DNA of 64,000 nt, from NCBI GenBank assembly GCA_033065855.1, contig JAVXUO010001934.1:1-64000 (forward strand). The letters run 5' to 3'. Origin of the DNA: Escallonia rubra (Eukaryota; Streptophyta; Magnoliopsida; Escalloniales; Escalloniaceae). The position numbers were made by a program, and so were the translations under genes. The notes under the pieces are model-generated. The model was not told the DNA's origin. It made no database searches and saw only the letters and a program-made list of their open reading frames with translations. Positions 1 to 31,000 of the stretch are shown in pieces (position 1 is the stretch's first letter; every line of letters begins with the position of its first letter).

Positions 1-1075
1 TATCAGGTAAAAATTTTAGATATTTTCAAATACTGGAAAGGGGTTAACTGATACGCGCAACCTTGTAACTTCGCAGTCTAATTTAAAATATCAAGCTAGC
101 GCGGTTTCGCGCGAAATTTTTTTGAGAGCCCTAGGATGTTGGAAAGTTCCATTCCCCATGAATTCGGGCCATTCCGAAGCCGGTAGCAATTTTTTGCCGA
201 ACGGGCTTTTAAGCGCTCGATCCGGACACCGGTTCGGGATTTTTTGACGAAAAATCCCTAAACTACTTTTTAGATCAAGGATGCACTCAGCAACCTCAGA
301 ATAGCGTCTTAAAGCACGTTTGAGATTTTTCCCGATGCCAGGGGGCATTTTCGTAATTCGTCGCCCGATAGGGGTATTCTCGTAATTTTACGCTTTCAAC
401 TTTTTCGAACGTCTTTTCAGTCCGTAAATGTAAGCACACCCTAAGGATGTTGGAAAGTTCCATTCCCCACGAATTCGGGGCATTCCGAAGCCGGTTGCAA
501 CTTTTTGCCGAACGGGCTTTTAAGCGCTCGATCCGGACACCGGTTCGGGATTTTTTGACAAAAAATCCCTAAAATGCTTTTTAGACCAAGGATGAACTCA
601 GCAACCTTAGAATAGCGTCTTAAATCACTTTTGAGATTTTTCCCGATGCCAGGGGGCATTTTGGTAATTTGCCGCCCGATAGGGGTATTTTCGTAATTTC
701 ACGCTCTCAACTTTTTCGAGCGTCAATACTGTCCGTAAATGTAAGCACACCCTAGCGAAGACTGGGAAGTGCCATTCCCCAGGAATCCGGGCCATTCCGA
801 AGCCGGTAGCAATTTCTTGCCGAACGAAACTTTTAAGCGCTCGATCCGGACACCGGTTCGGGATTTTTTTGACAAAAAATCCCTAAAATGCTTTTTAGAC
901 CAAGGATGAACTCAGCAACCTTAGAATAGCGTCTTAAAGCACTTTTGAGATTTTTCCCGATGCCAGGGGCATTTTGGTAATTCGCCGCCCGAGAGGGGTA
1001 TTTTCGTAATTTTGCCCCTTTCAACTTTTTCGAATGACTGCTCAGTCCGTAAATGTAAGCAAACCCTAGAGAAGG
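1..1075 (+). repeat. Left inverted arm of the MULE (truncated by window)
   Basis: This arm is the reverse complement of the right arm. It consists of a unique terminal part (1 to ~128) containing a CG-rich stretch near 108-122, followed by three tandem modules. Long arms with internal tandem repeats are common in plant MULEs and often hold the promoters of the internal genes. Short open frames inside it are by-products of the repeats. Confidence 0.85.
129..1064 (+). repeat. Tandem repeat, three copies of ~311 bp, inside the left arm
   Basis: Copies begin at about 129, 439 and 750, each with CCCTA followed by a run that includes GAAGCCGGT and the block GCGCTCGATCCGGACACCGG. Spacing is 310, 311 and ~314 bp. 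The same module occurs in inverted orientation in the right arm. Confidence 0.9.
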
Positions 1076-1258
1076 CGGCTAGGGTTATTAAGCGTTCGGA
1101 GTCGTTGGAAGTGAGGAATGGTTTTCATACATTAAAGTAATGATTTAATGACTATTGTTATTGCGTTGGTAAGCTAGGTTAACGATTCAGTTACAGTTTT
1201 GGAATGTAAATATTATGGACGCTAAGTTAATGTACGATTATATTTTGTTCTTACAGAT

Positions 1259-4202
1259 ATGGATTTCAACCCTGGACCTCATGATACATCAATCCTATAC
1301 GATGACGATGACCACGTCGCGAGGCACGTATTTAACGGTGTCGATAGGGGTGTTTTGGAAACACGTCAAAGCACAAGTGGCCATTCCGAGTGGGTACTGA
1401 ATGAGGAACAAATAGAACTACTGCGAGATCAAAATTTGACGGTGTTCACCGATTGCGGGATTTGGGCTCGGCACGACGATTGCCTTATATCTGCTCTAGT
1501 TGAACGATGGAGGGGCGAGACGAACTCATTTCACTTCCGGTTTGGTGAAATGACTATTACATTAGAGGACGTTGGATTTATACTTGGAATCCCATGTCAC
1601 GGTAGACCCATTACTTCGAGTAATGGGTCTGCATCCATAGCGAAGATGGCTATGCAGTATTTTCCGGGAATTCCAAGGGAAGCTCTTACAACCAACGGCA
1701 TAAAACTTAAATGGCTGAGAGAGCAGTACGGCGAGCTACCGGATGAATACACTCCTCATGATTTTTCGGTGTATACGAAGGCATTCCTTTTGTATATTAT
1801 TGGATCTATATTACTTCCGACGCAAAAAAAAAACACGGTGCATCCGAAGTATTTGGTGTTCTTGGAGGATCTTGGGGAGGTATACTCGTATTCGTGGGGT
1901 TCAGCTGTCCTTGCGCACCTATATCGAGCATTGCACAAAGCTACGAGAAAGGGTGCCAAGTCCATTGCCGCCTGCATCACTCTGTTACAGGTTTGAGCAT
2001 TAATATTCTTCGTTGACGTGCCAATATATTCGTGATTAATAACTAATTCCATATTATGTTTGCATTCACAGGTTTGGTCTTACGAGAGGCTACCCACGGG
2101 TCGTCCACAGCCCGTAGCTGATTCCGATGAGACGTGGCCTAGGGTGTGGGCCTGGGGGCCTAGGCCCAGACGGACTAAACGGGTAGACCCTCACCACAAT
2201 CTAATGTTCTATCGGGGGGAACTAGATATGATGGATGCATCCCTGGTGACGTGGCAGCCATATGGGAAGGTGATGCATCGGTTGGATGAGACGTGTTGGC
2301 AACTGCCGGTGTCGTACGTGCTGGCAGGTTTGGTTCGGGTGCCACTTATTCATTTCGAAGTATGTGAGTTTCAGATGCCCGATCGAGCTATGAAGCAAGC
2401 TGGCTGTCCACAAGGGATTCCAAAACTCGCTGTAGACATGCGGCCATACAGGGGTGGTCGAGGGCCGAACTTCGAGGTGGCTAATGCCTTGATTTTGTTG
2501 GGTGACGAGGTGGATCAGTGGAATACCTGGCAGGAAACGTATGATAGCCTTGTATCGCTCAAGGACGACGGCACCAGTACTGAGGAATACTTACAGTGGT
2601 TTCTCAGGGTGACGCGCACGAGGGTGAATCGCCCTTCCGAAGTGAGGACGTCATCGTACGCGCCACGTGAGGTCTATGACCAGTTCTGGGCATTGAGCAT
2701 TGTAAGTCAGCTTGAGTGTCGTTTCAATATTGATTTGCGCACCTTCTCGACCATGCCTGAAATGATGACGGTGATTTTTCTATGCATGTTTGTAGGTTGA
2801 CAAGGGCACTGAGATGTTCAAGCAGCTCGAGCGGTTTGACTGGTATGTCGCGCATGCGCCTGACAGTTTCAAGAGCTCCGTTGAGTCGTACAAGACTGAT
2901 CTTCACAACTTTGGTGTTGCGTACCGGGGTTACCAAGGGGAACCGTCTACTCGCTTGCCTCCTGACCCGTTCGGCTCTCAGCCCCAGCCCCAGAGTCAGG
3001 TGTGGGAGCCGTCTAGTGGCTTGCCTCCTGACGCGTACATCCCACAGCCCGAGAGTCAGGTGTGGGAGCCGTCTAGTGGCTTGCCTCCTGACGCGTACGG
3101 GTTTCAGCCCCAGAGTCAGGTGTGGGAGCCGTGTAGTCGCTTGCCTCCTGACACGTACGACTTTGTGCCCCAGAGTGAATTCTGGGAGCCGTCTAGTCGC
3201 TTGCCTCCTGACACGTACGACTCTCAGCGCCAGAGTCAGGTGACCCAAGTAGGAATCCAGGCCTCGCGCCCAAGCAACCGGTCGGATAAAGGACAAGCGA
3301 CAAAGCCATTGGGGCGATGGAAGCGGGGTTGGATCGACCAGCACTACTTCGGGCCTGAGCCTGTCAACGATTCAACAGACTTTCCTCTTGGAACATTGCT
3401 AGGTCACACGGATGTGAGAATGTTGGCACCGGAGACAGATATTTCAAATTTTGTCATGAACGCTTATATAGATCTGCTCCGGATTAGAGAGCTACGTTAT
3501 AACCATCGCGAAGATTTGAAGCTTAACATGTATCCCACTTATCTTGTCCCATTAATGGTGACCAGCATGAGGGAGTTCACAGAATCGAGGAGGCGAGGGG
3601 CAGGCATGGGTAAGTGGAAACCAGCTGGAAACTTGTTAGCCCTGTTGACCGCAGAGAATCAATGTCACGCTGCTCATGCGAACCTTGTCATGATGCCTTG
3701 CCATCACGAACACCACTGGTTCCTATTAGTTCTCTATCCAGCGAACAGAGCGGTCAACATATACGATAGCCTACGGGAGGACTCTCCCTTTCGGTCGCTG
3801 GCACAGACATACAGCGAGTACATCACTGCAGTGGTTAGTTTTTATCGGTTGACCTTGGCTCATAGTATATTCTTATCGTAACATATATTGATGACCTTTT
3901 TTAATTGTTGGATGCAGACTACTATCTTCTCGCTAGCGTGCCGAGATTATTCGGGGGAATCCATCACCAGGAATTCGACGGTAGATCCTTGGACGGTCGA
4001 GACGATACAGGACCGACCAAAGCAATATAACAGTCATGATTGCGGGATTTACGTCCTCAAGTACATGGACTACATTGCTCGCTCGGAGGTGCTCAGATAT
4101 ACGTCGTGGACAAGGAAGGCTGCCTTGACGTTTAGGTATAGGATAGCCTGGGAGCTGAAAAAAAATGAAGCTAGATGGCTTCATTACCATTATCCTAATT
4201 AG
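1259..4202 (+). CDS. Plant mobile domain (PMD) - Ulp1 (C48) protease fusion protein, transposon-borne
   Basis: Four exons give an uninterrupted 894-residue protein: 1259-1990, 2072-2701, 2796-3833 and 3918-4202. All three introns are GT-AG, short (81-94 bp) and phase 0. Residues ~45-370 are the plant mobile domain (motifs FTDCGIWAR, LEDVGFILGIP, YSYSWGSAVLAHLY). Residues ~503-603 are five 20-residue proline-rich repeats. The C-terminal part is a Ulp1/C48 cysteine protease domain with H761 (in HHW), D778 (in IYDS), Q836 and C842 (in SHDCG), the normal triad plus oxyanion glutamine in the usual Gln-x5-Cys spacing. Ulp1 enzymes cleave SUMO or related modifiers; PMD proteins such as MAIN and MAIL1 act in transposon silencing. 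Activity here is inference. The ATG follows a possible acceptor ending at 1256, so a 5' UTR intron is likely. The gene lies convergent to the transposase. Confidence 0.88.
2941..3240 (+). repeat. Coding minisatellite, five 60-bp units in exon 3 of the PMD-Ulp1 gene
   Basis: Five consecutive 60-bp units, all in frame, encode a ~20-residue repeat with the core WEPSSxLPPDxY. The period is an exact multiple of three and no unit breaks the frame. It forms a flexible Pro/Gln-rich linker between the PMD and the protease. The same repeats create a long spurious open frame on the opposite strand. Confidence 0.92.
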
Positions 4203-4765
4203 CGTGACTATGGTGCAATGAGCAAAGAACCCCTGAAAAAAATGTTCATAATTTTTTTATTGTTGCTACGAATTTGGCGATACAGTGTGCACCCATATTA
4301 ATACATTATAGGATTTTCTGAAAAATTATTTGTCTCGATTTTCGCTTAAATTCATATATATGGCCTATTAGCGTGCCTAAGGGGCAATGAGCAAAAAAGA
4401 AATGACAAAAAAAATTACGAGATTTTTCGGAAGCTATGAATTGGGCCCTAAAGTGTGCCCGAATAGGCCCTTCCTAGGAAAACCCAAAAAATAATGTGTC
4501 TCGTTTTTCGCCTGTATTTTTATGTATTTGCTAACTAGCGTGCCTGAGGTGCAATGAGCAAAAAAGAAATGACAAAAAAAATTACTCAATTTTTCGGAAG
4601 CTATGAATTGGGCCCTAAAGTGTGCCCGAATAGGCCCTTTCTAGGAAAACCCAAAAAATAATGTGTCTCGTTTTTCGCCGAAATTGTTACGAATGGGCTA
4701 ACTAGCGTGCCTGAGGTGCAATGAGCGAAAAAACAGGGACAAAAAAAGTACAAGATTTTTCGGAA
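4201..4765 (+). repeat. Tandem repeat of ~167 bp (3.3 copies) between the two convergent genes
   Basis: Units start at 4201, 4371, 4537 and 4704, each with AGCGTGxCT followed by GCAATGAGC. The first unit begins inside the TAG stop of the PMD-Ulp1 gene and the last ends ~95 bp before the stop of the transposase. Units two and three are nearly identical. The position suggests a shared 3' end or transcription-collision zone; that role is inference. Confidence 0.88.
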
Positions 4766-4858
4766 GAACAAACCAAATCACAAATTAAAGATTCAACAAA
4801 CTAAATCACAAATTTAAACATTATAAACGTTATTCGTTATACAACTGAAACATTAACC

Positions 4859-7159
4859 CTAACACTCTTCATCATCATCGTCCTCCTCGACCATACTGCC
4901 AGGTGCAAGACCTAACGCTTTATAATGGTTTCTCTTGTCATGATCAGTCATCTTATTACACAACGCACACTTTCGCAATTTTTTTTGACCCGTTTCTTTT
5001 TCAATGGGATTCTTCATGCGTATTTCTCGTTTTCGCCCTTTTGTTTGAGAAATAATTGGATCAAAAATGTCGTCCTCCTCAACTTGCGTGCTAGTGCCGT
5101 CAATGACTGGCTGTTTGGCTCGATTGAATCTACCGGCTCGAGTCGTCCGAGTAGTCGGAGTGTCCCGTCTCTGTGGATCAGCCATCCTAAACTGTGCATG
5201 CTTAGCCATATCCCGTGCGGCTGCTTCAACTTGATACTTGTACCCATCAAACGTTGACGCTGCATCCAATGATAAACTGTGCATGATGTTACAAAGGTGA
5301 TTATATCGCAGCGGCTCAGATTGTTCGAAATCAACTGAAACATTGGGCACGTAAGGAATGTGACCGTGGACTCTATTGGCTTCCTTCGTCCACCGTTCCA
5401 AGATATACTGTTGAGGGATTTCACTAGCATTCTTCGAGATCAAAAGCCTCAACGCGTGTCGACAAAGTATACCTTTATGCTCAAACAATTGACAGTTGCA
5501 ATTTACCAACCCGGTGTCCATACATTTAGCCACGGTAAAATGTCTTCTGTTCCTCGGAGTCGACGAAGAGCACGGATTGGGAAAATTCGTCACGTTTGTC
5601 AAAGCATAAACCTTGAGATCTCTGGTGGAATACTCGTGCAACTTTGTCATGCCATATTGATTCGACTTTAGTAGTTCAACTTGAAACTGTCTAAACATTT
5701 CCTTCGTATAGACTTGAGCCGCATGAGCCTCCAAAGGTGAAAAGAGTAGTATGGCTCTTTCCTTGTAAGCCGTAGCCGCGTCGGCTTCTCTCTCACGGTA
5801 CAATTGCCTATCAACGGCTTTCTGCATCTCCAGTACGAACTCCACTATACTTGAAGACTGGCTTACGTACCCATCAAAGAATGAATTCATAGCTTCGCTT
5901 CTCGAGGTCGTAGTCATTCCGAATACAAAAAACTTCTTGGTGTAGGCACCGACCCACTGTGTCTTGATCGCATACAACGATTGTAACCAGTCATGATTGT
6001 GCAAAGAGTAGTCATCCATTAACGTGGCCCACCTCTCCTCGAACACGTCTACCGTCAACGATTTCTTCACACATGTATTAAAGTCAGTCTTGAATTCCAG
6101 ATGGTTTGCATATACATGGTGAAGCCGTTCGGGATATTTGTTGCTTATGTGCCACGTGCACAGGCCATGGTGAGTATCTGGAAGGACCTTAGCGATCGCA
6201 TTGTTCATTGCCAGATCTTGGTCGGTGATGATGGTCTGTGGAGGAATACGATACATTGCTTGAAGCCACGTTTCAAATAACCACGTAAATGACTCCTCCG
6301 TCTCATCCCTAAGCAGGGCAAAGCCAAACGAGATTGACTGATAGTGGTGGTTCACCCCCGTGAACGGAGCAAAAGGCATAGAGTACTTATTGGTGCGGTA
6401 TGTGGTGTCAAACGTCACAACATACCCAAAATTTAGGTAAGCAGGTATAGAACGGGGGTCCGCCCAACATATAGTACTAATGTGGTTCTCATCATCGAGT
6501 TGGATACTGTATTACAATTCAGCATTCTCACACTGAAGGCACCTGAAGAGATCAATGGTAGCTTGAGCATCATTCCTACCGAAAGACTCTCTCTTCTGAG
6601 CACGAAGTTCATTTCGAAGGTCTACGTCGTTGAAACTCAACTTGTCAATCCCCCCAGCCTGGCCTGAGAAAACCTTCATCATCTTAGAAGGTGGAATTTT
6701 AGCGTCGGCCATTGTTGAAATCAGTTGTCTCTGTGCCGCGCGTATTTCTCGGTGTTGATGAATTTGACCAATCATACTAGGGGTGCAAAACTGATGATTA
6801 TGGCTCAACTCCACAGCCGTCACAACCCAATGGTTTTCAATTTTCCGGTGTACTGCATACACATGGGCTTTGCAGCCGGTACCCGGAAATGTGTCCCGTT
6901 TTCTTTGTCTTGTTGTCCCTTCGTCACTGATCTGAACGACCGGGGGCACATACGGTGCTCCTCTATGACACTCAAATAACCTTGCACCAATTTGATCGGT
7001 ATTCACCCGTTTTCTAGTCGTTTTAGTTCTAATACCGAAACCCATCGTTTTCGAATATGCTCTGTAGTATGCTTCGACTTCGTCCAGTGTTTGGAAAATT
7101 TGACCCAAGTAAGGTGGATCAGAACCTTCACAAAAAATATTTCCTCCAGTTGTATCCAT
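4859..7159 (-). pseudogene. FAR1/mudrA-type MULE transposase, one in-frame stop
   Basis: Reading from 7159 down to 4859 gives a 766-codon frame broken once, by TAA at 6514-6512 (codon 216). Residues ~15-130 are a FAR1 DNA-binding domain (AYYRAYSKTMGFGIR, ELSHNHQ). The MULE transposase core follows, with acidic residues at D251 (TFDTTYR), D313 (IITDQD) and E422 (SRSEAMNSFF) and the CTWHISNKYP motif. A SWIM zinc finger (CNC...CRHALRLL) lies at ~560-580, and a small C-terminal Cys/His motif (CALC...NHYKAL) near the end. Transposases of this kind bind the arms and catalyse cut-and-paste. A possible acceptor just upstream of the ATG points to a 5' UTR intron; the same site is kept in the relative at 59463. 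The stop could be recent decay or an assembly error, as the rest of the frame is open. Confidence 0.88.
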
Positions 7160-7259
7160 ATTTATACTGAAATCTAAAAAATAAAAATTATATCATTCTC
7201 AACAAGTCATAGAATTAAATAAAAGAAGAATGGACTCTATTTGCAGTGTAATTGTTGGA

Positions 7260-9060
7260 AAATTTGTATAACGTAAAATTACCAAAATAGCCCCCGATGA
7301 GCGGCAAATTACCGAAATGCCCCCGGGGGTTCATTATCACCATAACGCCCCAAATCAGCTTCGAAAGCACGTTTCAGGTGCTTTGCTTACATTTCTGGAC
7401 GAAGCAGTCATTTGAAAAACTGAAAGGGGCAAAGTAACGAAAATACCCCTCTCGGGAATGGGAATAACAAAAAGGCCCCCTGCAATCAGAAAAGCTTCAT
7501 AGTTTTTTCAGTCATCGCCCCAACAAGCTTTATCTAATTCACAACTTTAAAGTATAACTTTTCGGATGTCTCACACCCTTTCCTGAACTAAAAGTGGTTC
7601 GGGAAATTCGTGTAATGTAAAATTAGGAAAATAGAACCCGATGAGCGGCAAATTACCGAAATGGCCCGGGGTTCATTAGGACCCCAACGCCCCGCGAAAC
7701 GGCCAAATCAGCCTTCGCTAGGGTGTGCTTACATTTACGGACTGAAAAGACGTTCGAAAAAGTTGAAAGCGTAAAATTACGAGAATACCCCTCTCGGGCG
7801 GCGAATTACGAAAATGCCCCCTGGCATCGGGAAAAATCTCAAACGTGCTTTAAGACGCTATTCTAAGGTTGCTGAGTCCATCCTTGATCTAAAAAGCATT
7901 TTAGGGATTTTTCGTCAAAAAATCCCGAACCGGTGTCCGGATCGAGCGCTAAAAAGCCCGTTCGGCAAAAAATTGCTACCGGCTTCGGAATGGCCCGAAT
8001 TCCTGGAGCATGGCATCCGAAATGCCCCAAGGCAGCGGAAAAAATCGAAAAAGTGCTTTAAGACGCTATTCTAAGGTTGCTGAGTCTGTCCTTGATCTAA
8101 AAAGCATTTTAGGGATTTTTCGTCAAAAAATCCCGAACCGGTGTCCGGATCGAGCGCTAAAAAGCCGGTTCGGCAAAAAATTGCTACCGGCTTCGGAATG
8201 GCCCGAATTCATGGGGAATGGAACTTTCCAACATCCTAGGGCTCTCAAAAAATTTTCGCGCGAAACCGCGCTAGCTTGATATTTTAAATTAGATTGCGAA
8301 GTTACAAGGTTGCGCGTATCCGTTTGCCCAGATCCAGTATTTGGAAAAATATGAAATTTTTACATAATACAGATATTTTAAAAATAACTAGGATCTCTTT
8401 TTTGCACTTTGGCAAAATCTAGCTCTAGCTATTTTTTATAAATTCGTGAAAAACTGTCTAATTAAGTTTTCACCTTTAGCGACCCCAACGCCCCGCGAAT
8501 CGGCTTCAAATCAGCCTTCGCTAGGGTTTGCTTACATTTACGGACTGAAAAGGCGCTCGAAAAAGTTGAAAGGGGCAAAATTACGAAAATACCCCTCTCG
8601 GGCGGCGAATAACCGAAATGCCCCCTCGCATCGGAAAAAATCTCAAACGTGCTTTAAGACGCTATTCGAAGGTTGCTGAGTGCATCCTTGATCTAAAAAG
8701 CATTTTAGGGATTTTTCGTCAAAAAATCCCGAACCGGTGTCCGGATCGAGCGCTAAAAAGCCCGTTCGGCAAAAAATTGCTACCGGCTTCGGAATGGCCC
8801 GAATTCATGGGGAATGGAACTTTCCAACATCCTAGGGCTCTCAAAAAAATTTCGCGCGAAACCGCGCTAGCTTGATATTTTAAATTAGACTGCGAAGTTA
8901 CAAGGTTGCGCGTATCAGTTAACCCCTTTCCAGTATTTGGAAAAATCTGAAATTTTTACCTGATACAGATATTTTAAAAATAACTAGGGTCTCTTTTTTG
9001 CACTTTGGCAAAATCTAGCTCTATCTATTTGTTTATAAATTCGTGAAAATTCATAATTTT
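7260..9060 (-). repeat. Right inverted arm of the MULE, with duplicated terminus
   Basis: The arm holds several inverted copies of the ~311-bp module seen on the left (clearest at 7722-8030, 8032-8240 and 8523-8840) and more diverged versions at 7260-7690. The unique terminal part, containing TCGCGCGAAACCGCGCTAGC, occurs twice, at 8240-8460 and 8840-9060, so the arm has undergone an internal tandem duplication including the end itself. Open frames on the plus strand here are by-products of the repeat. Confidence 0.85.
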
Positions 9061-9170
9061 GACGCCCTAAAAAATCGCTATTACCGAATCTTTCGAATGT
9101 AATACCCCGATTTGTAAAAACGTAATTTTGACGCCCTAAACACGAATTTTAGACTATGGTAAGAACAATT

Positions 9171-9896
9171 TAAGCGTAACAACAATTTAAATTAACATTG
9201 AATTATAAGAAAATTCAAAATACTTACTTGTTTTGACTTTAAAAAAAATGACGAAGAAATCCACCGATCTTCTAGCGTAAATTTTTTTGACGAAAAAAAT
9301 TGTGGAGATTATGTAGGTGAGATATGGAGAATGATGAGAGCGTAAGAAATAATTCGGGGGAAGAGGGTTTTTATAGACAGAAAAGTGAGCCGTGGGAGGG
9401 GGGGGGGGCAACTGATGTTGTGCCATGTGTCGAAGAGGGGTGGGGGCCAAAACATGGGAGGAAATTGGAGGGAGGAGGAAAAGAGGGGTCTGCCGAAGGG
9501 GGGTGGGGGTCTAGGAAAAAAAATTGACAAGTGGGGAGGGGGGTGGGGGCTAGGGGGGGAAAATGGACAAGTGGGGAGGGGGGTGGGGGCTAGGGGGGAA
9601 AATGGACAAGTGGGGAGGGGGAAGAGGGGTGGGGCCAAGGTGGGGGTTACTTCGGGTGAGAGGAGGCAAGGCCGAAAAAACAAAAAAAAAATGGACCGCG
9701 CGATTGGCCCAAAAAAAAATGGACCGTGCGATTGACCTTGGGCCAATCATTGCCCTTTTTCGCCATAAATGGCCCAGTCCAGCCGTCTTTTTTTTTTTTT
9801 TGCAATCGGTAGGCTTTCAGGCGATTGGGTGGGAAAAAATATTTTTCCCACCGATGGGTGTGTAGCGAACCCCCATATGTATATATATATAGATAG
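9171..9896. other. Gene-free stretch with G-rich minisatellite (9390-9650)
   Basis: From about 9390 to 9650 the plus strand is extremely G-rich, with many runs of four to seven G. A ~40-bp unit (GACAAGTGGGGAGGGGGG...) repeats at 9526, 9566 and 9605. Such runs can form G-quadruplexes. Around 9829-9851 is a 23-bp near-perfect palindrome (GTGGGAAAAAATA...). The long open frames across this stretch on both strands are low complexity and not genes. Confidence 0.75.
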
Positions 9897-10588
9897 GGAG
9901 TTGATCCCTTGACAGCGCTGGCAAAATAGGACATCTTGCCAGCGCGATCTGGCCGTCCATCCCTTCGGGATGGACGGCCCAGATCACTTTTTTTTGCGGC
10001 GCTGTCAGTCGTCCGCTACATAGTGTAGCGGACGGACCTTTTTACCATCTTGCCCTCGCTCACCCGTCCGCAAGATGAACTCTAGATTATGAACAAAGAA
10101 AGGATTGGTTTGTGAACTTACGTGATTGATGAGACGATTAAAGGATTTCTTGCAAAGAAATTGCGCCGATCTACTTGCCAACGCCGCTAGTTTGATCGTG
10201 AGAAGAAGGAATAGTTTGATTGTGAGAAGAAGGAATGAATAGAAGTTTAGAAGGGTTTCGAATACTTGCCAACGTCCGCTACACTGTGTTGCGGACGCTG
10301 GGATAACGACAAAGTAACAGTCGTGCATCGACTGATGTGACAACTGTCAGGGGGAAGTTGGTGATTTGACAGACACAGTCGTCCGCTAGACAGTGTGGCA
10401 GNCTACTTTTTGGCGGACGATGTGGGCCCAAGTATGACGTCCGCTACACAGTCTAGCGAACAGGTGAGCGAGAGCAAGATGGTAAAAAGGTCCGTCCGCT
10501 ACACTATGTAGCGGACGACTGACAGCGCCGCAAAAAAAAGTGATCTGGCAAGATGTCCTATTTTGCCAGCGTTGTCAAGGGATCAGCT

Positions 10589-10590
<2 letters not shown>
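9897..10590. mobile_element. Non-autonomous TIR element (694 bp) inserted in a (TA)n tract
   Basis: The ends are inverted: GGAGTTGATCCCTTGAC on the left and, as reverse complement, GGAGCTGATCCCTTGAC on the right. The similarity extends for ~150 bp. The left arm carries an extra 40-bp hairpin (9946-9985) with a TTCG loop that the right arm lacks. The palindrome GTCCGCTACA/TGTAGCGGAC or a close variant recurs at about 10011, 10266, 10381, 10438 and 10496. Both flanks are TA repeats. There is no coding capacity. Shared modules with the element ending at 60221 suggest a MULE-related family. One ambiguous base (N) lies at 10402. Confidence 0.8.
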
Positions 10591-25053: not shown

Positions 25054-28000
25054 TCAAATAAGGCGATTTGTCACGGTGTAGCCTCCATCTACTACTAGAT
25101 TATGCCCACTCACATACTTAGACTCATCACTCGCCAGAAAAAGTGCAGCTTCTGCCACATCTTGCTCCCGGAGATCTTTCCCCTTCATGTTGTAATACAC
25201 TCTCGATAATTGATCACCGTTGAGAAGTTTCTCAGCCATTGCCGTTGGCACCACGTGGGGTGATATGCAATTCATGCGAATCTGGAACTGACCAAGCTCC
25301 GCAGCAACATTTTTAGCGAGTCCCACCACGGCATGCTTTGAACTCACGTATGCATGGGTTCCAAATCCTCCAAGAATGCCACAAGTACTTGCAATCGCAA
25401 TGATGCTACCAGTGCAAGTTGGGATCATTACGCGAGCTGCATGTTTGGTTCCGAAGAACACACCTGCAGTAATGACGTTAACAATTGTCTCGGAAGACAT
25501 AGTTTAATCAAATTGGAATGAAAATGAAAAGGATCAATAGGAAAGGAGAAATAAGAGAGATGATCAAGTTCTTTTTTTGCTTATAATTATCAGATGGAAG
25601 CGAAATGACAAAAGTTAAGGGGCCTGTTGACAATTGCAACATGTTGGTAATGAAGATTTAAATTCAAATCAAACTGATCCAAATCAGTTTGATTCAGAAG
25701 ATTTGGCAACTAACCATCTCTCCAAGAAAATAGGATAAGATCATATTGGTAGTTTGTATTTCAAATTATGTAGCTGCCTTGTAGCTTTAGAACTCTAGAA
25801 CTCAAGAGATAGTGAAGACTTTAGAAGTAATTGAGACAAATTTCAAACATTAATATAATTTTCTTTAAGGTATCAGAGCCTCCAAGAGGACTCTGACCTT
25901 CTCACAGCAGCAAATTCAACCAAAATGTCTACTTCATCAGTCAAGTATGCTTATCCTTGCAACTTGAACGTAGCAAATTTTGTTTCCCTCAAACTGAGTA
26001 CAAGCAATTACCTGTTGTGGGAGATGCAAATGCTGTCCTTAATTGAAAGCCAAGATCTTTTAGGCTTCATCAATGGGGACATTGTTGCACCTGATTCTGA
26101 AGTGAACTCATCTGATGGAAATAAGAGAATTCCGAATCCAGACTTACGTCATGGGTTCGCACGGATCGCTTAGTAAAAGCATGGATACCGGGATGCTTTC
26201 TGAAGAGGCTCTAGGTGTTGTCGTTGGCCTTAAGACTTCCACCAATGTGTGGAAAGCCCTTGGGGATACTTTTTCTCAGAATTCTCAAGCTACAGAGTTT
26301 GAACTTTTGGCTCAACTTCAGGTAAAGAAAGGTAATGCTTCTTTGTCTGACCATCTACGTGATTTCAAGAAGACTTGTGATCAATTGAATGCTGTTGGAA
26401 AGCCTGTTACTTATCAAAATAAAGTTTTTTGGTTGTTGAGTGGACTTGGTCCAAAGTATGAGTCTTTTGCCACCACAATGTTAAAACCACATGTACCATC
26501 ATATGCTGATTTGATTCCTTTACTCCAAAGCCATGAGCTTAGGAGTAAAGGACATCAGAGTGAATCACTTAATCACTCCATGGTCTACTATAGCCAGAGA
26601 ACATCAAATGGTAACAAAAATTCCGACAAGAAAGGTGGAAGTTCCTATTTCACGTCAAAGGGAAAAGGTTTCCTTCAAACTGGACAAAGTCAATTTTGAT
26701 CTTCTTTTCCGCCTCAGTCTCAGCCTAAGAGCAATGTTGCAAATCCCGAAGGCCATCCGCCAATTTGTCAAATCTGCAACAAGAAAGGGCACGAGGCTCT
26801 TAAGTGTTGGCATAGGTTTAATCACTCATTCCAAGCTACTGATATTCCTAAGGCCCTAGCAGCAATGCATGTTATAGACTCTCAAGATTCTAAATGGTTT
26901 TTGGTTACTGGCGCAATTGCTCACATAACTGAAGATCCAGGTAAACTCTCTAATTTGGTTCGTTATCAAGGTTCAGATTCAGTAATGGTAAGAAATGGAA
27001 ATAAACTACACATCTGTCATATTGGTGATGGAAAGATTAAAAGTGGACATTCTGTAATCCCATTAAAAGATGTGCTAGTTGTTCCTCATATTCAGAAGAG
27101 TCTCTTCTCTGTTTCACAACTCACTAATGATTGTCCATGTTCATTCGAGTTTGATGGTAACGGATTTGTGATAAAGGAACTACGGACCAATAAAGTTCTT
27201 GCAAAAGGGAGTAAAAAATGAGGTCTTTATGCCCTGGAAAATCAGCAATTACAAGCCAACTTTTCAACTCATTTTCGGACTGTGAACGAAGTTACTTGGC
27301 ACCAAAGACTGGGGCATCCACAAGCAAGAGTTCTGCAATTCCTCTAAGTAATAGGCTTATTTCTATTAACAAAAAGTCTCATGGTTTATGCATGAGTTGT
27401 CAGATGAGTAAAAGTTGTTGTCTTCCGTTTAGCATTTTCAATCATAAATCAAATGTACCTCTCGAAAAAGTACATTGTGATCTTAGGGACCAGCCCCTAC
27501 CTTGCTTGTTTGTTCAAGGTTTCAAGTATTATGTGGTGTTTATTGATGACTATTCAAGATTCAGTTGGTTTTATCCGTTGAAAAGAAAATCTGAATTCTT
27601 TGATAAGTTTCTTCTTTTTAAAAAATTAGTTGAGACACAATTTGATCGAAAAATAAAAAGCTTTCAAGCAGACGGGGGATGAGAATTCTCAAAGCGGGAC
27701 TTTCTTAATCATCTTGCAAGTTGTGGGATTATTAACCATATTTCATGTCCAATGACACCGCAACAAAATGGCGTTGCCGAACGCAAGCATCGCTATATAG
27801 TTGAACTTGGTCTTGCTATTCTTTTTCAAGGCTCCGTCCCTCGGCATTGCGTTGTAGAAGCTTTCTCTACTATTGTTTTCTTGATTAACCGTTTGCCATC
27901 TCTTGCGATGAAAACGACGAGTCCGTATGAGCTGTTATTTTCCAGAAACCAGATTATTCTATGTTGCGTATCTTTGGATCTCTATGCTATCCATATTTGC

Positions 28001-31000
28001 GACCGTATGCTCATGACAAATTGGCTCCTAGATCGTTACCATGCGTCTTCTTGGGTTACAGTGATAAGCAAAAGGGTTATCGATGCTTCCATCGTCCAAC
28101 AAATAGAGTATATATATCAAGATGTGTAGTCTTTGATGAAACAATTTTTCCATTTTCATTGACCTCTCCCACTTGCTTACAAGAACAGGTTGAGGGTGAG
28201 CTCTCCACATTTACAGAGTGGCTTTCTCCACAAATTGCACAACCAGTTGATATTCCAACGCAAAAAGACCATTTTCAGCATTGGAGCGGGCTCGGCTTTT
28301 CACAGGAGATCCACCAGCTCTTGACCAAACAAGAGACCAGGTGCCCATTTTATTTCCACCTACTGAACTTGAGATTATTCCTCTTGTTTCATGGCCACCA
28401 TATGGAGAACCACTTGTGGTCCCTAATTCAACCTCACCCTTTACAATACCCAGTACTACTTGTGTTACTCCACCATCTAATTCCCAGTTTGATGTTAGTC
28501 CTTCATCTACATCTTCATGTGCTCTTTCCCACCCCATGATAACAAGAAGTAAGCAAGTATTGTCAAAGCCAATCCCAAGTATGCTCTCATTCTTTCAGCT
28601 ATTCCCCAAGAACCCAAGACAGTGAAATCTGCCCTTAAACATCCAGGGTGGAAACAAGCTATGATTGTAGAAATGTAGGCTCTTACAGCTAATGACACGT
28701 GGGATTTGGTGCCTCGTTGTTCTTCCTTTAACGTTGTGGGTTGTCGTTGGATATTTAAGACAAAGCTTCAAGCTGATGGATCTCTTCATAGATTGAAAGC
28801 CCGTCTTGTGGCAAAGGGCTACAATCAACAATAAGGCATATATTTTTTTAAACTTTCAGTCATATCATTAAGCCTTGGACAATTAGAGTTATTCTTACTT
28901 ATGCAACAGTGCGTATATGGTCTATTCGTCAACTTGACGTCAGAAATGCATTTTTACACGGTCTTCTACAAGAGCAGCCACCGGGTTTTATCGACAAGCA
29001 TCGACCAGACCATGTTTGTCGTCTTAAAAAGGCTCTTTACGGTCTCAAACAGGCTCCACGGGCATGGTTCGACCGATTTAGCTTGTTTTTGATCTCATAT
29101 GGCTTCTTTTGTAGCGTTGCAGACTCATCCCTCTTTGTGTATCGTCACGATAATCAAATCATGATTCTCTTATTATATGTTGACGATATAATATTGACCG
29201 GAATTAACAATACTCTTTTGGATGAATTTACCGCAGATCTTGGACATATGTTCTCTATGAAGGACTTGGGTCCCCTTTATTTCTTTTTAGGTATTCAAGT
29301 TAATCGCACCCCTGATGGCCTCTTTCTTCATCAATCCAAGTACGCTGGTGATATTTTGCAACGTGCTATGATGGTTGACAGCAAACCAATAGCCAATCCC
29401 ATGGCTCCCAAGTCGTTCTCCTTAAAAAATAGAGATTCTATCTTCCATGACCTAACTTTGTTTCAGAGCATTGTTGGCGGCCTTCAATATCTTACTATGA
29501 CTCGGCCTGATCTTTCATACGCAATAAACGTCGTCTGTTAACCCATACATTGTCCAACTCAAGCGGCTTTTCAGTTAATGAAACGTATATTGCGATATGT
29601 CAAACACACTACTCAACTTGATCTTCAAATTCGATATGCTAGTAGTTTTGACCTCTACGCCTTTTGTGATGCAGACTGGGCCGGTTGTCCTTCTTCAAGG
29701 CAATCAACCACTGGCTTTTGCACGTTTCTTGGTTCAAACTGTATCTCTTGGAGTGCAAAGAAACAATCAATTGTTGCTCGTTCAAGTGCTGAAGCTGAGT
29801 ACCGTGAAATGGCTTCTACAACCGCTAAACTAACATGGCTCTCCTTCCTTCTTCGTGATGTTGGCATGGTTCAACATCATCCAGCAACCTTATTTTGTGA
29901 TAACCTTGCTACTCTTTACATGTCTATTAATCCGGTTTTCCACGCACGAACTAAACACATTGAGGTGGACTATCACTTTGTACGTGAGAAGGTAGCCCTT
30001 GGATCCCTTGTCACTCGATTCGTCTCTTCCAATCAGCAGCTCGCTGATATTTTCACCAAGCCTTTGTCTCGGGATGCTTTTCAACATTTGCGCACCAAAC
30101 TTGGCCTTTGTTCGTACATGCAGCTAAGTTTGAGGGGGAGTAATGAAGATTTAAATTCAAATCAAACTGATCGAAATCAGTTTGATTCATAAGATTTGGC
30201 AACCAACCATCTCCCCAAGAAAATGGGATAAGATCAGATTGGTAGTTTGTATTTCAAATTATGTAGCTGCCTTGTAGCTTTAGAACTCTAGAATCTGTGT
30301 GTAAATATACAAGAGACAATGAAGACTTTATAAGTAACTGAGCCAAATTTCAAACATCAATATAATTTTCTTTAGTTGGAAATTAGATGGAAGCAAAATC
30401 ACAAATAAAGACGTTGAGGCATGTAATCATTTTATTAAAGGCTTTATTTATCCCCATTCAAAATCAAATTTGTTGATGGGTTGCAGATAAATAATCTTCA
30501 AAGACACAAATAAGTCTCAGTGGGAATTCGCAAACAGCAAATTTGAAAATTCCCCTTCAAATTTCTTTGAAGTTGTTCACTCTTGGCTTTAGAAACTTTT
30601 GAGACAAAAGAGAGTACAAAAATTGCAAGTATTATGAAAATATAGAATTATGATCAAACTTGTCAAACTCAAAAATGTAAGTTTTGGATAAACACAATTG
30701 TTGAAAAAAAAAAATAGTTACAACGGTTACATATTATATATATAACTGTTGTGACGTGATTTGGCATGGTCGCACATGGCGTTATTATTTTTTAATTTTT
30801 TTTCAAAATTACGTTTTTTTAAAAAGATGTGACTGATAATATTTCAAAAATTCTAACAATTTATATCATATAAATATATAATAAGCGAAGCGAGAGCTTT
30901 TTTCCGTGACATATCATTACAGATATATGACTTCTTTTCTTAACACGTAAACACATTATGTTTTCAATGTGAAAAATGAATTATAACTATAATAAGTGTC

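Follow-up and report, generated by a model that had tools for sequence, protein, structure and literature searches.

A Jittery-type, TA-targeting MULE of Escallonia rubra with a convergent PMD-C48 gene and a candidate VANC/KIU-like anti-silencing role

We analysed the opening 64 kb (hereafter the window) of a 245-kb contig (JAVXUO010001934.1) from the 566-Mb genome assembly of Escallonia rubra (GCA_033065855.1). Positions 1–9873 are a single copy, truncated at one end, of a Mutator-like element (MULE) with two convergent genes, one encoding a FAR1-type transposase and the other a protein that joins a plant mobile domain (PMD) to a Ulp1-like Peptidase_C48 (C48) domain. The second gene is integral to the element. 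Its sequence fits best with a Jittery-type (by domain set), TA-targeting MULE that has a VANC/KIU-like second gene. VANC, encoded by VANDAL transposons, has been shown by experiment to be an anti-silencing protein (PMC5735166, PMC10398659; published systems are described here and below as in the cited sections of each source). We tentatively propose that the PMD-C48 protein may act against silencing as a VANC/KIU-like factor that is family-addressed and has a deSUMOylase head, a reading that takes in recent activity of the MULE family.

A convergent gene pair with Jittery-type transposase domains

The PMD-C48 gene occupies 1259–4202 on the plus strand and comprises four exons that encode 894 amino acids (aa) without interruption, with GT/AG at all three introns; the exon borders were placed by reading frame and GT/AG. 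Pfam matches to PMD extended across exons 1 and 2 (E = 3e-45 and 1e-17) and those to Peptidase_C48 across exons 3 and 4 (E = 2e-6 and 4e-9), in agreement with a preliminary description of this DNA, which had named a PMD/C48 gene convergent with the transposase gene. The His, Asp, Gln and Cys of the C48 domain align with those of SENP2, which we take to be the catalytic triad and, for Gln, the oxyanion residue. A structure prediction for the PMD of exon 1 alone had a mean predicted local distance difference test score (pLDDT) of 36 and was not used for any conclusion.

The transposase was recognized by its FAR1 (5e-14), MULE (PF10551, 7e-33) and SWIM (4e-7) domains, as had also been noted earlier; these domains lie in two open reading frame (ORF) pieces in the window and in one frame in the copy L046. 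The preliminary description had further called the element MuDR-like, with the second gene in the place of mudrB. MuDR membership was rejected, since the MuDR-type N-terminal domain (presumably PF03108) was absent and FAR1 alone was found at the N-terminus in the window and in L046. The combination of FAR1, core transposase and SWIM has been assigned to FAR1/FHY3-type proteins in the Jittery family (PMC2528002), so the second gene, which is PMD-C48, probably does not stand in for mudrB. The element has a DDE transposase domain and terminal inverted repeats (TIRs), including paired exact termini, as expected of a MULE; on the features compared, it does not belong to MuDR, VANDAL or KIU.

The gene pair is common to the family

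The family is high in copy number: the transposase search yielded 95 scored copies of 97–100% identity from 3701 first-look candidates. Both this list and that of C48 matches hold the best-scoring matches, and open-frame counts drawn from them are biased upward because the scoring favours good copies. A C48 match lay 1.7–3.4 kb from 86 of the 95 transposase copies and was convergent with the transposase in 86 of 86. Among the nine transposase copies without a listed C48 match, the one on C1160 has a deletion as read (L028), and those on C1798, C195 and C100 lie less than 1 kb from a contig end where C48 was expected. Conversely, 64 of 150 C48 matches had no transposase among the matches listed; 37 of these were 94–96% identical, the band of a subfamily that we term A', which falls under the 97–100% range of the transposase list.

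We also fetched 20 of the 39 other scored left-arm copies, taken near rank order with C2098 passed over. All 20 contained the PMD-C48 gene, 18 of them without a C48 deletion (L020 has lost most of C48, and L028 its end). The earlier claim of two genes within one arm pair thus extends to the family, and a one-off insertion of the PMD-Ulp1 gene between the arms, the alternative that the preliminary description had raised, was ruled out by the 20 fetched copies and the 86 pairs. The PMD-C48 gene was intact in 12 of 21 copies, window included; in a thirteenth (L012), the frame was open but the splice donor was lost. The transposase frame was open in 13 of the 20 other copies, and both genes were intact in nine of the 20. 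A 172-aa C48 piece was stop-free in 149 of 150 scored matches.

Related families and other PMD genes

Two further families were recognized, each from one copy read in part; we refer to the family of the window as A. The convergent pair recurs in family B (C1503), with identities to A of 43% in the PMD, 25% in the C48 region and 51% in the transposase, and the His, Asp, Gln and Cys positions are kept there (by eye). The exact 17-base end of B occurred 310 times in forward and 304 times in reverse orientation (reversed control, 0). Seven of 11 presumed B-like PMD matches (contigs up to C525) had a B end 1043–1067 bp upstream among the matches listed, as judged by eye. In family C (C1449) the PMD resembles that of B. 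The C48 core has been lost from the copy that was read, and the 7.5 kb covered gave no transposase; C is counted as a MULE because it resembles B.

In a tree of 11 PMDs, families A, B and C grouped together (90/99) beside a PMD gene on C306 (84/91), taken as a host gene, and apart from MAIL-like genes on C922 (two of four used) and from C48-less PMDs. This placement is tentative because the program warned of long branches. At the C922 locus (1278226–1296817), the minus strand carries a tandem row of four PMD matches, each strong, full-length and free of introns across the domain; these are probably host MAIL-like genes. Two further loci, L037 (C2557) and L038 (C2383), represent many-copy PMD genes, and no C48 was found in the stretches read.

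Modest constraint on both genes

Within the family, PMD-C48 had a pN/pS (the ratio of nonsynonymous to synonymous polymorphism) of 0.56 over 12 intact copies, and the transposase one of 0.42 over 13 open-frame copies. Between A and A', the corresponding ratio of substitutions per site (Ka/Ks) was 0.47 for the PMD (0.034/0.073), 0.65 for C48 (0.028/0.042, where synonymous changes numbered just 7.5) and 0.49 for the transposase (0.024/0.049), the A' side being one copy per gene (L039 for PMD-C48, frame-shifted in the linker, and L046 for the transposase). Both genes are therefore constrained, modestly and alike. A stretch of 61 codons past the PMD had a Ka of 0.10 and a Ks of 0.05 between A and A' (14 and 2 changes).

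These values bear on the possibility that the second gene is passive cargo, a captured and functionless host gene fragment. MULEs often capture host genes (PMC2528002), the within-family pN/pS is just 0.56, PMD-C48 is broken or mis-spliced in nine of 21 copies, and the family C copy read lacks the C48 core. We nevertheless regard passive cargo as very unlikely, given Ka/Ks below 1 between subfamilies, the nearly always stop-free C48 piece (under a scoring that favours good copies) and the presumed active-site residues retained in family B at 25% identity.

Family-specific peptide and DNA arrays

The linker between PMD and C48 contains a tandem peptide array of 3.3–6.4 units of 20 aa across the 20 copies, and the noncoding array between the two genes has 2.3–5.2 units (16 of the 20 fetched copies, those scored). 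Families B and C have different peptide arrays in the linker position. The intergenic array of B has a unit of 133 bp (78 + 55), and C has a 154-bp (2 × 77) array downstream of the gene; the intergenic or downstream arrays of A, B and C have no 12-mer in common. Variable peptide arrays in the protein together with variable tandem arrays in noncoding DNA are a trait of the VANC type.

A palindromic pattern, TCCGC-N6..14-GCGGA, was found 25 times in 3460 noncoding bases of B (0.03 expected; at most 1 in 200 shuffles) and 13 times in 4330 bases of C (0.01 expected), counts to be read with the pattern having been picked after the arrays were seen and with sites inside one array not being independent. 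Of the B sites, the intergenic array holds 16 and the left arm four, and the other five are close to the 3' end of the transposase gene. Three more occur in 699 bases of a B-type short copy in the window. There were none in 4625 noncoding bases of A and none in gene stretches, introns included, of B (5397 bases) and C (2170 bases). An unbiased context test favoured the half-site in B at 8 bases, with eight contexts (shuffles, up to 5); at 7 bases there were nine (shuffles, up to 10). In C the result of six equalled the shuffle maximum, and A gave only A/T-rich runs. The exact 23-bp near-palindrome GTCCGCTAYANNRTRTAGCGGAC was counted 9822 and 9840 times on the two strands (reversed control, 0); being a near-palindrome, it is largely the same sites that are counted twice, about 9,800 in all. 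It occurs in several repeat spacings, for example in L036 at ~4542–5715 and 6469–6695. Between two exact B ends on C17 (22232–31826), palindrome sites lie near both ends and in mid-stretch.

In family A, a 16-bp motif, GGGGYATTTTSGTAAT, occurred with up to three mismatches 12 times in noncoding DNA, with none in gene stretches, ten shuffles or B and one in C. Allowing four mismatches gave 16 noncoding sites, two in gene stretches and 0–3 in shuffles of A. This motif is weaker evidence than the palindrome because it was chosen after looking and sits in arm units and diverged arm-like DNA. The arm units of A also contain a recurrent dyad of ~23 bp, GGGATTTTT-N5/6-AAAAATCCC, at six sites. Perfect dyads sought without bias numbered 26 in the noncoding DNA of A (4.8 expected), 41 in B (2.6) and 48 in C (3.9), and were also present in gene stretches (10, 17 and 10, respectively). 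The Arabidopsis 'DOWN' motif CATGCAGTTT (PMC9899485) was absent from family A.

Transposases commonly bind repeated subterminal motifs, and the palindromes and 16-bp pairs may instead be binding sites of the transposase through FAR1, with the second gene unrelated to them. Pfam describes FAR1 as a DNA-binding domain, and some motifs are found close to the ends or within the short derivative; the 16 intergenic palindromes of B and the five by the 3' end of its transposase gene are not where transposase binding would be expected. We consider this explanation somewhat unlikely, and an anti-silencing role of the second gene would still be compatible with it.

Alternatively, PMD-C48 may be a transposition helper that acts in the transposition reaction, as mudrB may in integration or as a subterminal-repeat-binding protein would, with the motif arrays as assembly sites. 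In support, mudrB is apparently required for integration, and the paper on the single-gene Jittery element, titled 'excision without reinsertion', fits a need for a second protein (both from PMC6446971). The close pairing of PMD-C48 with the transposase, the motifs near the ends and the three palindromes in a 0.7-kb foldback with B ends also agree with it. Against such a role, 21 of the 25 family B palindromes are located between the two genes and remote from the ends, and SUMO-protease folds are not known to take part in strand transfer. In addition, the putative autonomous element AutoMuTAnT, whose target choice is similar, contains just one ORF (PMC4486113). We consider a helper role unlikely.

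A marginal link to the DUF1985 domain of VANC

VANC proteins contain DUF1985 (PMC5735166, Fig. 5 legend). Exon 1 of the window copy matched it at 30.3 bits, under the cut-off of 35.1. The copy on C949 (L068) scored 159.8 for PMD, 35.3 for DUF1985 (+0.2 bits over the cut-off) and 30.7 for DUF7745 (cut-off 26), and that on C2889 scored 33.1 for DUF1985 alone and 35.1 with its neighbours. Genome-wide, 145 DUF1985 matches were obtained among 150 scored (of 1019 candidates), 16 of them flagged above the cut-off. Five of these 16 loci (C949, C2034, C1136, C2889 and C2965) coincide with A-group PMD or PMD-C48 places; the four highest scores belong to other loci (C2826, C1254, C1809 and C1710). There was no DUF1985 match in the two C922 genes or the C48-less L038, and a weak one (20.5) in the C306 gene. 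The four ORFs that cover the PMD-C48 exons of the window gave no match to DUF287. The profile link of the PMD region to the DUF1985 of VANC thus appears marginal.

A possible mechanism and the points that weigh on it

From the gene pair, its order and conservation, the kept catalytic residues, the repeat and motif architecture and the marginal hidden Markov model link to the VANC domain, we infer DNA binding, deSUMOylation and loss of silencing as the steps of a possible mechanism. The PMD/DUF1985-like region and the variable repeat linker would bring the protein to short family-specific motifs, which would be concentrated in the element's own noncoding DNA, namely the arms and intergenic tandem arrays. 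There, the C48 head would strip SUMO or a SUMO-like tag off silencing proteins, and its removal would make both genes expressible and the copies able to move. The suggestion in the preliminary description that the element may carry its own host-interference factor appears a fair one on this sequence.

A broader proposal is that PMD-C48 proteins are addressed deSUMOylases, each directed to a DNA motif of its own family (in B and C, the 23-bp palindrome), that PMD and the DUF1985 of VANC are one lineage with which hosts, through MAIN/MAIL1, silence and transposons undo silencing, and that motif and peptide arrays co-evolve as lock and key. We offer this as speculation that is rather unlikely to hold as a whole.

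The C48 head could also act as a general host modifier, cutting SUMO conjugation across the nucleus and weakening silencing or stress responses without any sequence address. The catalytic residues kept in A and B would suit this, as would the presence of ULP1 genes in MULE and CACTA families irrespective of TIRs (PMC2528002). We judge it distinctly unlikely, as it leaves unexplained both the family-specific motif arrays and the union of PMD, variable linker and protease in families 43% alike.

Several observations weigh against a family-addressed anti-silencing role. Constraint on PMD-C48 is modest, as the within-family pN/pS indicates. The arms were once methylated, since their CG and CHG transitions per site (0.098 and 0.141) exceed those of PMD-C48 (0.039 and 0.042) and the transposase gene (0.057 and 0.051), while other changes were similar (0.040 in arms vs 0.033 and 0.051); counts were made for the left arm (window 1–1076) in the window and 19 copies, L019 being excluded for its poor arm match. 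Purifying selection in the genes accounts for part of this gap. CpG decay had been considered as a sign of protection from methylation, and the opposite pattern was found. Both motif patterns were selected after the sequence had been inspected, and the motifs could belong to the transposase. K-mers common to unrelated noncoding parts of A were close to expectation (96 vs 89 expected pairs at 8 bases, 35 vs 30 at 9 bases), with a small excess at 10 bases (18 vs 8.7), and this test was counted negative overall. The C949 copy that exceeds the DUF1985 cut-off is decayed, with frames broken on either side of the first half of its PMD. Family B reached just 13.7 bits (E 0.064) and family C had no DUF1985 match, which weakens the anti-silencing reading and the broader proposal. 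Finally, VANDAL21 has three ORFs and VANDALs are described as mostly non-TIR (PMC5735166, PMC10398659), whereas the present element has long TIRs and two genes.

Element boundaries, insertion sites and neighbours

The preliminary description had placed the element at 1–9170; its right terminus is at ~9873, with a TA-rich tract beyond (Table 1). The left terminus is outside the contig, as the sequence opens within the left arm, ~1 kb inside the end by comparison with the copy on C1828. The long inverted arms described earlier were confirmed, with 94% identity over 405 bp within the window and 93% over ~1.75 kb in the fuller C1828 copy. Arms contain tandem units of ~311–314 bp, three in the left arm of 19 of the 20 fetched copies and four in the other, and 1.9–4.1 in the right arm across 16 scored copies, part of them cut by the fetched stretch.

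Table 1 Features of the element and its flank in the window.
Feature	Position	Strand	Remark
Inner part of left terminal arm (~1 kb at outer end off contig)	1..1076		three 311-bp tandem units at 129-1068
16-bp motif, three pairs 29 bp apart, left arm	342..1010	+	342/371, 653/682, 966/995
Exon 1 of PMD-C48 gene	1259..1990	+	start codon, PMD N-terminal half, below-cut-off DUF1985 match
Exon 2 of PMD-C48 gene	2072..2701	+	PMD C-terminal half
Exon 3 of PMD-C48 gene	2796..3833	+	linker carrying the tandem array of 20-aa peptides (DNA 2938-3242); C48 N-terminal part with presumed catalytic His, Asp
Exon 4 of PMD-C48 gene	3918..4202	+	C48 domain; Gln (oxyanion) and Cys (catalytic), both presumed; stop codon
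Intergenic tandem array, noncoding, 167-bp unit	4321..4766		
Transposase gene (FAR1, MULE, SWIM)	4859..7159	-	single in-frame stop at ~6512 in window copy
16-bp motif, three more degenerate pairs, upstream of transposase gene	7278..7667	-	7278/7308, 7434/7464, 7622/7652
Right arm, inner unit of 311-314-bp series	7709..8013		
Right arm, outer unit and GC-rich terminal part	8512..9873		end ...CCCACCGATGGGTGTGTAGCGAACCCC
TA-rich tract, insertion site	9874..9895		
Short foldback copy with family B ends, outside element	9896..10590		three B/C-type palindromes; abuts via TA tract

Full copies have the terminal sequence GGGGTTCGMTACACACCCACCGGTGGG. Its exact 30-base terminus occurred 58 times in forward and 69 times in reverse orientation genome-wide (127 in total; reversed control, 0), and flanks were read for 10 terminus pairs. 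Nine of the 10 had (TA)n on both sides, and the tenth was TA-rich with a degraded right flank. The two flanks agreed over odd lengths including 9 bp in seven pairs, over even lengths in two and not at all in one; a 9-bp target-site duplication, within the 8–11 bp expected of MULEs, fits but is unprovable, because flanks agree at several lengths within TA tracts. Nine of the 10 pairs span 10.2–12.6 kb, and eight of these nine have listed matches to both transposase and C48, the ninth (C909) to C48 only. The tenth pair, at C1968:293321–299883, spans 6.6 kb and lacks listed matches to either; family termini similarly ~6.5 kb apart, again without listed transposase or C48 matches, were seen at C254:20495–26904. 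The C254 short copy retains a short match to the DUF1985 model, and both short forms are perhaps non-autonomous deletion derivatives.

The foldback neighbour, 0.7 kb long and 83–91% identical to family B, has (TA)n again on its far side. SaTar MULEs show modular stacking in microsatellites (PMC5907723); here, the element and the B-type foldback share a TA microsatellite. Close neighbours were seen again at C1449:1273–14860 and in L040, where a gap of ~1.4 kb separates a family A-type end pair from the PMD gene of family C that follows. Elsewhere in the window, pieces of a Copia-type retrotransposon (gag, SH3-like and RVT_2) lie in separate frames at 26106–30192.

Comparison with known systems

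The (TA)n flanks are shared with MuTAnT and SaTar of guayule and rice (PMC4486113, PMC5907723). In Medicago, MuTAnT is a MULE of TA microsatellites that was mined with GGGGTTTGCTAGAACA; it has a Jittery-like transposase and also a GGGGTT.. terminus (PMC4486113). AutoMuTAnT is 4.9 kb long with its single ORF (PMC4486113), whereas the present elements are 10.2–12.6 kb long with a second gene.

PMD and Ulp1 have each been described in MULEs. Antisense PMD is common as the second ORF of MULEs, including MUDR, MUDRAVI2, MDR and others, and VANDAL is given as 'PMD and/or DUF' (PMC6446971, Table 1). The plant Jittery sub-group in that table has FAR1 and no PMD, unlike the present element with FAR1 and antisense PMD. 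PMD has also been found fused to MULE transposases, with an anti-silencing use offered as speculation (PMC5418596); no C48 fusion is named for those cases, and here PMD-C48 is a separate gene. In some genic proteins PMD is joined to a 'protease' (PMC7156037). ULP1 genes have been described in both MULE and CACTA families, regardless of TIRs, and Jittery-like MULEs of melon and grapevine carry ULP1 (PMC2528002, citing van Leeuwen 2007). The latter resemble the present element in combining a Jittery-type transposase with a downstream ULP sequence; the main text of PMC2528002 does not mention PMD for them, and arrays and motifs are undescribed in that section. In a literature search with subscription journals mostly outside it, PMD was not found together with Ulp1/C48, nor with DUF1985, among the matches listed.

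The preliminary description pointed to Kaonashi and to MAIN and MAIL1 and left out VANC, the nearest precedent, as well as KIU, antisense-PMD MULEs and ULP1 in Jittery-like MULEs. Kaonashi/KIU elements likewise have a Ulp1 gene antisense to the transposase, in KIU joined to a VANC-type protein (PMC13317346, PMC2528002). VANC-Ulp1 (KIU) genes are located on VANDALs, and the role of their Ulp1 domain is stated to be unknown (review PMC13317346). Kaonashi/KIU is non-TIR, while the present element is of FAR1/Jittery type, with TIRs of roughly 2 kb (one copy measured) and TA-microsatellite insertion, and the VANC-type part of KIU is matched solely via the marginal DUF1985 score.

The VANCs of VANDAL21 and VANDAL6 (Hiun) in Arabidopsis resemble PMD-C48 as second-gene proteins of MULEs with DUF1985 (a weak match here), with tandem peptide arrays in a variable region, and with noncoding arrays and short motifs that differ by family (PMC5735166, PMC10398659). 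VANC carries DUF287 beside DUF1985 (PMC5735166), whereas PMD-C48 gave no DUF287 match and has a C48 head and a far stronger match to PMD. Some elements grouped with VANDAL do possess TIRs (PMC6446971). The well-studied plant example of a transposon that undoes its own silencing is VANC in Arabidopsis. The E. rubra family would add a separate, TIR-bearing type of MULE with a similar kit of a PMD with weak DUF1985 likeness, a repeat linker, a Ulp1 head predicted to be catalytically complete, and motif arrays. It may thereby join the literature on PMD and MAIN/MAIL1 with that on VANC, and it makes the speculation in PMC5418596 directly testable with a named DNA site.

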